A stretch of DNA of 64,000 nt from Nitrosopumilus sp. Nsub (GTDB lineage Archaea > Thermoproteota > Nitrososphaeria > Nitrososphaerales > Nitrosopumilaceae), in the NCBI RefSeq assembly GCF_001541925.1, contig NZ_LQMW01000017.1, forward strand, positions 124,001 through 188,000, in the 5' to 3' direction. The position numbers and the translations under genes are program-made. How positions within the stretch are numbered: position 1 is the first letter of the stretch; each line of letters begins with the position of its first letter. Below, one piece after another: positions 61,573 to 64,000 of this stretch. The notes beneath the pieces were generated by a model, which was given only the letters and a program-made list of their open reading frames with translations, was not told the DNA's origin and did not search any database.

Positions 61573-62139
61573 TTAATTTTTGAATTTGCTAATATCCATT
61601 GTTAAGAACATCGGTTTTCCTTCGGTACTTTCAAAATCTTCTCCATATTGCTGAAATTCTAATTGATCAAAGAAATGCTTTGTCCAAACATCATGAACGT
61701 CATGAATGTATTTTTTATGTCCTTTGATTCTTAACATCTCATGAACTATTTCATGTGAAATAGTTGTACAATTTTTTTCTGCCAAAAATAAGTCGTCAGG
61801 AGATTCTTTTGGTTTTTGCCAAAAAATCATTCCAAAATTTTCTGCATGATAACCTTCGCAAGTGCAATCAGTCCATAGAGGTTTAAAATGAGTTAAGTAG
61901 AAATGATATGTGTCTTTTCCACGTTGTTCATGATCACGAACAAGTGTATGTGTATCTAGTTTTTGTAATATACTTCTAGGTTTTGTAATTAATTCATCAC
62001 ATTGAATTTCATAATCAATTCCAAAATTTTCATTAATCCATTTTTTATAAAATTGTGCCATTTTTTTGATATATTCAAATTCAGATTTACGTTTATCAAG
62101 TTCCTCTTCTTTAATTACAAAAATAAAATGTAGAAGCAT
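61573..62139 (-). CDS. Putative zinc metalloprotease (HExxH)
   Basis: 188 aa. The C-terminal half contains SHEIVHEMLRIKGHKKYIHD: HEIVH fits HExxH, with a downstream His/Asp cluster (HDVHD) that could supply a third ligand. The N-terminus is hydrophobic only for the first 9 residues. The family is not identified, so the peptidase call is tentative. Confidence 0.5.
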   Translation of the reverse strand: MLLHFIFVIKEEELDKRKSEFEYIKKMAQFYKKWINENFGIDYEIQCDELITKPRSILQKLDTHTLVRDHEQRGKDTYHFYLTHFKPLWTDCTCEGYHAENFGMIFWQKPKESPDDLFLAEKNCTTISHEIVHEMLRIKGHKKYIHDVHDVWTKHFFDQLEFQQYGEDFESTEGKPMFLTMDISKFKN

Positions 62140-62157: not shown

Positions 62158-62397
62158 TTATGTTTGACCTTCAATACCCATCAGAGTAAGAGTAGAACGA
62201 ATCTTTTCAATTTTTCTGATTTTCCAGGTAATTGTTTCTCTCAGTTTTTCAACAGTGTCGGATTCAATCTTGGCCAAAATATCGTATGCACCAAAAGTTC
62301 CATGAACTTCTTTTACACCTTCTAAGCCCTTTAGTTGCCCAATAATAGCTTCCTCAGAACCTAGTTCACAGTTTATTAAAACATAAGCTGTTGCCAT
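62158..62397 (-). CDS. Stand-alone AsnC/Lrp ligand-binding (RAM) domain protein
   Basis: 79 aa. AYVLINCELGSEEAIIGQLK, EVHGTFGAYDILAKIESDTV and STLTLMGI match the C-terminal RAM domain of Lrp/AsnC regulators without the DNA-binding helix-turn-helix. Such proteins form oligomers that may bind amino acids. Ligand unknown. Confidence 0.85.
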   Translation of the reverse strand: MATAYVLINCELGSEEAIIGQLKGLEGVKEVHGTFGAYDILAKIESDTVEKLRETITWKIRKIEKIRSTLTLMGIEGQT

Positions 62398-62439: not shown

Positions 62440-62859
62440 CTAACTTTGTGAAATTTTGATAATTTCATTCCAAATTGGTTTAGGAACAGGCATTACAGAC
62501 AATCTAGAGATTCTAACTAATTCCCAATCTTTGAATTTTTTATTATTTTTTATTTCAGTTAATGTTACTGGTCTTTTCAATGTTTTTTTGTATTTTACAT
62601 CAACTACAATAAAACGTTCAACATCCTCTTTTGGATTAGAGTAAGGTTTTGAAGTAACTTGCATTATTCCTACTGCTTGTCTTTCATCACCAGTATGATA
62701 AAATAAAATTAAATCATTTGGGTTCATTTCCCTCATATGTTTTAATGCTAAATTATTATGAACCCCATCCCAAACCGTAGTCTTTTCTTTTTTTAGTTGT
62801 TCAAAATTATATCCTCTAGGTCCACTGGGTTCCTGTTTTGCCAACCAGTAGTTTACCAT
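62440..62859 (-). CDS. EVE-domain protein
   Basis: 139 aa. WLAKQEPSG, DGVHNNLALKHMREMNPNDL and FYHTGDERQAVGIMQV are EVE hallmarks (PUA-like fold). EVE domains bind modified bases and occur in both restriction and RNA-related contexts. Here it is a single-domain protein without a nuclease neighbour. TATA-like TTAAAC at about 62883-62889 lies 25 nt upstream of the ATG. Confidence 0.88.
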   Translation of the reverse strand: MVNYWLAKQEPSGPRGYNFEQLKKEKTTVWDGVHNNLALKHMREMNPNDLILFYHTGDERQAVGIMQVTSKPYSNPKEDVERFIVVDVKYKKTLKRPVTLTEIKNNKKFKDWELVRISRLSVMPVPKPIWNEIIKISQS

Positions 62860-62904
62860 TATTGTAGTTTGAAAATTACTAACGTTTAATGGTTTTTAGA
62901 AAAT

Positions 62905-63076
62905 TTAGTGTTCCCCGGTTCTGACTCGCAAAAAATCATTGGACATAGCCATACGCCTCATCACGTTCTGAAACCGGGGTTGCCCATAATGTAGCACACC
63001 TGGGTGAATTAGAAATCATTGGTATCGTTACGATCAGCGTCATCCTAATCCGTCTGTGTGCCTGCTCTTGGGCGTT
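62905..63076. ncRNA. Structured GC-rich intergenic element, candidate non-coding RNA
   Basis: The 289-bp spacer between the EVE gene and the small membrane gene holds a clearly GC-richer island without a plausible frame. Two nested helices are visible: CCCCGGTT (62913-62920) with AACCGGGG (62972-62979); and GCCCA (62982-62986) with TGGGC (63069-63073), enclosing GCACAC (62994-62999)/GTGTGC (63056-63061), ATTAG (63008-63012)/CTAAT (63045-63049) and a small ATCG/CGAT hairpin. TTTAGTG sits at both ends. In an AT-rich genome this pattern marks structured RNAs. Strand is unresolved; it does not match SRP RNA, RNase P or 5S motifs that I know. Confidence 0.55.
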
Positions 63077-63148
63077 TAGTGATTAGATGAACCTACTAAA
63101 AACTATTAGAGATTTATTAAATAGAAATTGTAGTTTTGTGAAAGGTTT

Positions 63149-63409
63149 TTGGAAATTAGAAATCAGAGAAAATTTTTAGTGGGATTAATAATTTTGATTT
63201 TAGGTTCGTTTGTAATAGTTTTTGATTATCCTCAAATTGAATATTTTAATTATTTAGAGAATGATAATTACATTACATTAGAAACAGACCAAAAAGAAAT
63301 ATTCCAAAAAATTCTTGTTGAATTTACAATTGGAGTAATTCTTTTTGTAAGTGGGATATCACTAATTATAATATCAATGTTAAAGAGATTTGAGAACAGA
63401 ATCAGATAA
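63149..63409 (+). CDS. Small membrane protein, two transmembrane segments, 86 aa
   Basis: Hydrophobic segments at residues 8-25 and 56-78, a polar loop between (FNYLENDNYITLETDQKEIF). The start is TTG 63149, about 28 nt after a TTTATTAAAT box at 63113-63122. Function unknown. Its end overlaps pheT by 30 nt on the opposite strand. Confidence 0.55.
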   Translation: MEIRNQRKFLVGLIILILGSFVIVFDYPQIEYFNYLENDNYITLETDQKEIFQKILVEFTIGVILFVSGISLIIISMLKRFENRIR

Positions 63410-64000
63410 TGAAATTTCAAATCCAACAACAGGTACACGAATCTTATAATTTTCAATTATAGTAGAATTTATTTCTCCAATAATTCCGATTGTGTTTCCG
63501 TCAAATAATATTTTTGCACAATGTCCATCTTTAAAAGTAGAATTAGAAACTGTTTTTGTTTCAATTTGAATTCCAAAACCAATTTTTAGTAAAGTTTGTA
63601 ACACAGATTTAATTTCAGTGAAATTTGCATCTTTATGAGCACTAATTACAGCAAGATTAATTTTTTCAGAAATAGGTTTATCAAGATTGAAAATATTTCC
63701 AGTTTCAAACATTTTTTGAGGATATGATTCATGAATATTTCTTGAGAGGTTTTCAATTAGTCCAGGAAGAATTGAATCACGTAAAATAGTATGCTCTTGA
63801 CTTTTTGAATCAAGTACAGATAGGATATTTTTAGAATCTCTATTTGTCATATCATATAGTACACGCTTACTACTCAAACTTGAATTTAATGCCTCAAGAA
63901 ATCCTAGTCCAATCATTGTTTGATTAAGAGATTTCAGATGTAGTGATACAGGGTTAGTTTGTCCAATTGTTTGAGATGGAGATACATTAGGCTCAAAATT
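63380..64000 (-). CDS. pheT: Phenylalanyl-tRNA synthetase beta subunit (5' part outside window)
   Basis: The frame is open to the right edge, so the gene begins beyond 64000; the ATG at 63916 is internal. The visible 206 residues are the C-terminal portion of the archaeal/eukaryotic type beta chain, with IGLGFLEALNSSL, TILRDSILPGLIENLSRNIH, FETGNIFN and the closing acidic-fold block IGIIGEINSTIIENYKI. It charges tRNA-Phe with PheS. Its 3' end overlaps the convergent membrane protein gene by 30 nt. Confidence 0.9.
   Translation of the reverse strand, partial: NFEPNVSPSQTIGQTNPVSLHLKSLNQTMIGLGFLEALNSSLSSKRVLYDMTNRDSKNILSVLDSKSQEHTILRDSILPGLIENLSRNIHESYPQKMFETGNIFNLDKPISEKINLAVISAHKDANFTEIKSVLQTLLKIGFGIQIETKTVSNSTFKDGHCAKILFDGNTIGIIGEINSTIIENYKIRVPVVGFEISLSDSVLKSL

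Follow-up and report, generated by a model that had tools for sequence, protein, structure and literature searches.

The 64,000-nt stretch of Nitrosopumilus sp. Nsub DNA analysed here (the window) contains an island of unusual composition at positions 62905 to 63076, in which 48.3% of the nucleotides are G or C, compared with 30.8% for the window as a whole. When 172-nt segments were sampled at a step of 10 (n = 6383), a single one attained 48.3% GC, and this was the island itself. A preliminary description of this DNA had drawn attention to the high-GC stretch in its AT-rich surroundings, had placed it in the spacer between an EVE-domain gene and pheT, and had listed a perfect 8-bp stem, a second, longer hairpin and a copy of TTTAGTG at either end. 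Each of these observations was borne out: Pfam matches confirmed the two flanking genes, the island is the 172-nt segment with the highest GC content in the window, CCCCGGTT (62913-62920) can pair with AACCGGGG (62972-62979), the longer hairpin spans 62982-63073, and TTTAGTG is found at 62904-62910 and 63075-63081. The TTTAGTG pair is not characteristic of the RNA, however, as just 1 of 50 related loci of the genus carries both copies.

No strand had been proposed previously, and we assign the RNA to the minus strand. On this strand, the fold of the island is more stable than that of dinucleotide shuffles (z of -2.9, 1/200), as is the fold of the second hairpin by itself (z of -3.3), while the plus-strand fold of the island showed no excess stability over shuffles (z of -0.5). 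A transcript from the plus strand was rejected, since its fold is no better than that of shuffled sequences and the G-U pairs that are kept among homologues would turn into A-C.

The features of the locus are listed in Table 1. Covariance models R1 and R2, described below, match positions 62901-63080 of the minus strand. In 49 of 50 loci of the genus, a TATA-like element begins 28 to 31 nt upstream of the first helix (GCCC), and this fixed spacing suggests, as far as can be read from the DNA, that the RNA has its own promoter. A pheT gene was located upstream on the same strand in 83 of the 99 loci examined and never elsewhere, and the EVE-domain gene, where present, starts 27 to 57 nt downstream of the RNA. 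Three other reading frames in the vicinity deserve mention. Between pheT and the RNA, the opposite strand carries an 86-amino-acid ORF for which Pfam gave no match (63149-63409, plus strand); it is found in approximately 19 of the 50 genus loci (e.g., L013, L018, and L039) and is missing from the others, making it a patchy insertion. On the minus strand, a 188-amino-acid ORF without a Pfam match (61573-62139) contains the sequence HEIVH, an HEXXH motif, and could encode a small metallopeptidase, and positions 62158-62397 encode a 79-amino-acid stand-alone Lrp/AsnC ligand-binding domain that lacks the DNA-binding part.

Table 1. Features at the pheT-proximal locus (positions refer to the window; RNA motifs are given as RNA)
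Feature	Positions	Strand	Remarks
pheT (PheRS beta chain, 3' part)	63380-64000	-	Pfam PF17759; conserved upstream neighbour
TATA-like element TTTTTAGTA	63094-63102	-	Putative promoter; position kept in genus
Two-hairpin H/ACA-type sRNA gene	62903-63076	-	Predicted transcript; ends approximate
Hairpin 1, outer helix GCCC/GGGC	62982-63073 (63070-63073 with 62982-62985)	-	Covariation
Hairpin 1, lower stem GGCACAC/GUGUGCU	62993-63062 (63056-63062 with 62993-62999)	-	6/7 pairs with double changes
Hairpin 1, 5' guide arm GACGG	63050-63054	-	Unpaired; nearly invariant in phylum; complements 23S CCGUC
Hairpin 1, upper stem with kink-turn-like GA (63040-63041) and AAUGA (63016-63020)	63006-63051	-	Covariation
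Hairpin 1, 3' guide arm ACCCAG	63000-63005	-	Nearly invariant; complements 23S CUGGGU
Hairpin 1, ACA box	62990-62992	-	Kept in nearly all homologues
Hairpin 2, lower stem CCCCGGUU/AACCGGGG	62913-62979 (62972-62979 with 62913-62920)	-	5/8 pairs with double changes
Hairpin 2, 5' guide arm AGA	62967-62969	-	Intact or almost intact in most homologues; complements 23S UCU
Hairpin 2, kink-turn-like GA (62958-62959)/AAUGA (62936-62940) and apical loop	62936-62959	-	Conserved GAGG...CC-N-AUGA
Hairpin 2, 3' guide arm GUCAG	62921-62925	-	Conserved; fixed distance from ACA
Hairpin 2, ACA box	62909-62911	-	Invariant; lower stem then A-ACA
EVE-domain gene	62440-62859	-	Pfam PF01878; downstream neighbour in genus and some related genera

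Conservation of a small RNA gene

The island sequence is present in a single copy in its own genome, and BLAST searches returned matches in most genomes of the genus and almost none outside it. In an alignment of 49 sequences, 97.1% of the cells in the proposed stems are paired and 11 pairs have changed on both sides, giving a covariation score of 0.152, compared with 0.018 to 0.080 for slid versions of the alignment. Of 400 genomes of the order searched with a first covariance model, 276, representing 46 of 66 genera, contained a homologue. With a second model, the family was traced through the phylum, where 121 of 398 genomes gave a match, and the families represented include many that lie beyond the order. 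These distant homologues receive independent support from gene order, as their position next to pheT is kept. In a diverse alignment of 22 copies, 30 of 37 base pairs show compensatory changes on both sides, with a covariation score of 0.416 versus at most 0.077 for slid versions, a difference that is partly expected because the alignment was fitted to the model. Covariation extends throughout the stems in both alignments, with 92 to 97% of cells paired. Two genomes (G316 and G388) contain two copies of the RNA each, reflecting either real duplication or mixed assemblies, G388 being 5% contaminated.

The check for compensatory changes in related genomes that had been proposed in the preliminary description thus came out in favour of an RNA, and the covariation, the phylum-wide spread and the TATA-like element at a fixed distance support its suggestion of a structured non-coding RNA that matches no curated family. 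The island is a genuine small RNA gene. We give practically no credence to the idea that it is a functionless GC island that arose by chance or through a mobile insertion; its unusual composition is all that speaks for this, and it is opposed by the phylum-wide conservation and synteny and already refuted by the covariation. It is also conceivable that the sequence is not a free RNA and acts in cis, as a 3' untranslated region or leader of pheT or the EVE-domain gene, as would fit with its location on the same strand directly downstream of pheT and its constant proximity to the EVE-domain gene wherever the latter occurs. However, the RNA has a TATA-like element of its own, it persists where the EVE-domain gene, which is limited to a few genera, is missing, and its nearly invariant arms match rRNA and not the adjoining genes, making a cis-acting element very unlikely.

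Hairpin anatomy and relation to known RNAs

A search of the window against Rfam gave no family at threshold on the island, the only matches in the window being tRNAs; the RNA is absent from Rfam 15, in agreement with the earlier impression. That it is neither SRP RNA nor RNase P RNA was likewise correct, as both (RF01857 and RF00373, respectively) were found elsewhere in the same genome and did not match the island. tRNA and 5S rRNA were also considered and rejected. A box C/D sRNA was dismissed, since the GUGAUGA sequence of hairpin 2 gives way to CGAGGA or CAAGGA in relatives, there is no matching D box, and the strands in question pair as stems. The label "unassigned" given to the RNA thus holds in the sense that no curated family matches, but its class can be assigned from its anatomy, which is that of the box H/ACA RNAs.

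Each of the two hairpins has a lower stem, an open internal pocket and an upper stem, and an ACA box directly 3' of the lower stem that is invariant after hairpin 2 and nearly so after hairpin 1. The stems vary with compensation, while the unpaired arms of the pockets are nearly invariant. Both upper stems contain a conserved kink-turn-like motif with G-A pairs, U-GA...AUGA-U in hairpin 1 and GA-GG...CC-N-AUGA in hairpin 2. The distance from ACA to the upper stem is 15 nt in hairpin 1, and in hairpin 2 the GUCAG arm starts 14 nt from ACA; in productive archaeal guides, the spacing is 14 to 15 nt, with a range of 14 to 16 nt, and the upper stem has 10 pairs when G-A pairs are counted (PMC4652768). 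The upper stem of hairpin 1 conforms to this layout, with 10 pairs if a U-U and two G-A pairs are included; double changes were seen in 7 of 9 pairs, and its kink-turn motif was read from the sequence. The ACCCA of its 3' arm is located at a constant 13 nt from ACA in all 18 hairpin 1 copies outside the order. A peculiarity of hairpin 1 is that its ACA sits within an internal loop closed by the further, outer helix, in which all 4 pairs show double changes and 97.7% of cells are paired in the diverse alignment. Hairpin 2 has a short, imperfect and asymmetric upper stem, and helix 6 is only 86% paired. GUCAG is found in 34 of 34 hairpin 2 copies of the order at a constant 14 nt from ACA, and the same distance separates ACA from a GUUAG, GUUGG or GUCAG arm in approximately 8 of 20 loci of other classes.

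Some variation was seen between families. In family f8 (L098, L099, L104, L107 to L109, and L111), hairpin 1 is degenerate and hairpin 2 is intact; the hairpins are therefore independent modules, and this pattern suggests that the guide for the peptidyl transferase centre was lost or relocated in this family. In family f2 (L101 and L105), a long AT-rich spacer splits the two hairpins. In families f1 and f8, the apical loop of hairpin 2, UGGCUA (62945-62951, minus strand), shows strong conservation; it could make contact with rRNA, with a protein or with a different region of the RNA itself.

We put the probability that the RNA is a two-hairpin archaeal box H/ACA sRNA guiding modification of helix 69 and the peptidyl transferase loop at roughly 85%. 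The two-hairpin structure and the H/ACA class are well supported, and the modified uridines are predicted from pairing. A stable sRNA of about 170 nt would be transcribed from the minus strand and fold into two box H/ACA hairpins, with L7Ae expected to bind the kink-turns and Cbf5-Nop10-Gar1 the lower stem and ACA. The search for protein partners, which covered Cbf5 and Nop10, found genes for both in the genome (376 and 84 bits, respectively).

Among known guides, the RNA distantly resembles HgcG/Pab40/Pf7 of the Thermococcales, in which H/ACA hairpins with kink-turns and ACA boxes are also arranged in tandem. HgcG (RF00064) did not match within the window, nor, even at an E value of 1, in the whole genome, and a pattern search of the genome collection for Thermococcales HgcG retrieved solely an unrelated bacterium. 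Distant homologues of our RNA do match HgcG weakly but significantly over the hairpin(s) (L101, E value of 4.6e-4; L151, E value of 2.5e-5), with scores (28 bits for L101, 31 for L151, and 21 for L153) that are all below the threshold of 77 bits. HgcG has three hairpins rather than two, and its consensus helix 69 arm is GUUAC (for U1915), whereas the arm here is GUCAG (for U1921). The RNA and HgcG may share a common origin. The Haloferax HP1/HP2 guide, presumably the RNA named sR-h45, has its hairpins parted by a long spacer, as are hairpins 1 and 2 in family f2. One of the Haloferax hairpins has been proposed to act on E. coli position 2586 and the other on helix 69, and in Pf7, stem II has been linked to the peptidyl transferase loop, with E. 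coli 2586 as a candidate site, and stem III to E. coli position 1915 of helix 69 (PMC2584109). Unlike here, the helix 69 targets of HP1/HP2 are 1915/1917, as far as their description allows a comparison.

Predicted targets in 23S rRNA

The invariant arms were scanned against the organism's own 16S and 23S rRNAs. The sole all-Watson-Crick partner of hairpin 2 is CUGAC-UC-UCU at 23S position 2018, in the 3' strand of helix 69, where the arms flank the target and leave two bases unpaired. Among 2,000 trials with shuffled rRNA sets, such a match was obtained in 3.7%, and when G-U pairs were allowed, a match to the short arms was reached in 55%; the longer f8 arms gave values of 1.5% for hairpin 2 and 0% for hairpin 1. 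Taken alone, the arm match of hairpin 2 is modest evidence. The target is strengthened by the fixed 14-nt geometry, by a GUUAG/GUCAG exchange that preserves pairing, as GUUAG of other classes still pairs with CUGAC via one G-U, and by a known yeast pseudouridine at the site. A helix 69 target is plausible, in which the arms would hold CUGAC-U-C-UCU and U2023 (E. coli U1921) would become pseudouridine. This position corresponds to yeast Ψ2264, which is guided by snR3 (PMC8307265); the numbering was carried over via Ψ2258/2260, equivalent to E. coli 1915/1917 (PMC2584109). Together, yeast snR3 and snR84 guide Ψ2264 and Ψ2266 in helix 69, the same sites that are predicted for hairpin 2 (PMC8307265). 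These are eukaryotic snoRNAs without a kink-turn, and no homology is claimed.

For hairpin 1, the only all-Watson-Crick partner is CUGGGU-UUAGA-CCGUC at 23S position 2678 (E. coli 2579-2594), a match obtained in 0.3% of 2,000 shuffled rRNA sets, or in 7% when G-U pairs were allowed. The arms would grip this segment of the peptidyl transferase loop, pairing with 11 bases around E. coli U2585/U2586, and a uridine there would become modified, most likely 23S U2685 (E. coli U2586). The equivalent of E. coli 2586 in Haloarcula, Ψ2621, has been attributed to Cbf5 together with an sRNA (PMC2584109). Two targets considered earlier, 16S U1317 (GGUGAA-UA-CGUC) and 23S U920 (GCUCGC-UA-GUUC), were dropped, as they bypass the invariant ACCCAG and GUCAG arms.

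The target of hairpin 1 in the peptidyl transferase centre is partly non-canonical, with five target bases left unpaired instead of two. It is possible, though doubtful, that hairpin 1 represents a phylum-wide non-canonical H/ACA element, marked by the five-base gap and the ACA enclosed by the outer helix, which either applies a new geometry to U2585/U2586 or acts as an assembly factor. These same two peculiarities would also be in line with hairpin 1 being a folding or assembly factor that binds the peptidyl transferase loop without modifying it, leaving hairpin 2 as the only guide, and some H/ACA RNAs, such as snR30, do work without modification (PMC7991803). We think this unlikely, as the 10-pair upper stem, the kink-turn and the lower stem with ACA make up the arrangement required by Cbf5 and L7Ae, and E. 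coli 2586 is a pseudouridine in Haloarcula (PMC2584109). Distinctly less probable is that the H/ACA RNA acts through hairpin 2 at 23S U2025 (E. coli U1923, yeast Ψ2266) by means of a longer arm, GRGUCAG. This arm pairs with CUGACUC over 7 to 9 bases in most families, and the spacing of 16 nt would be inside the published range of 14 to 16 nt (PMC4652768), but the 5' arm AGA has no pairing beside U2025, and the GAG/GGG portion becomes CAG or CUG in families 13, 14, and 4 whereas GUCAG is constant.

Most of what is known about guide RNAs for rRNA pseudouridylation comes from Thermococcales, Haloarchaea and Crenarchaeota. Our literature searches found no such guide RNA described for Nitrososphaerota or Bathyarchaeia-like lineages and no H/ACA RNA in Nitrosopumilus. 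In summary, the RNA represents a new family within a known kind of RNA, and both its structure and its class are well supported. The family is missing from Rfam, is spread across the phylum and retains a single genomic location, downstream of pheT. That hairpin 1 has been lost from the pheT locus in one large family amounts to a natural experiment, and the RNA family as a whole leads to specific and cheaply testable predictions of pseudouridines, in helix 69 and in the peptidyl transferase centre, for archaea that are abundant in the sea and in soil.
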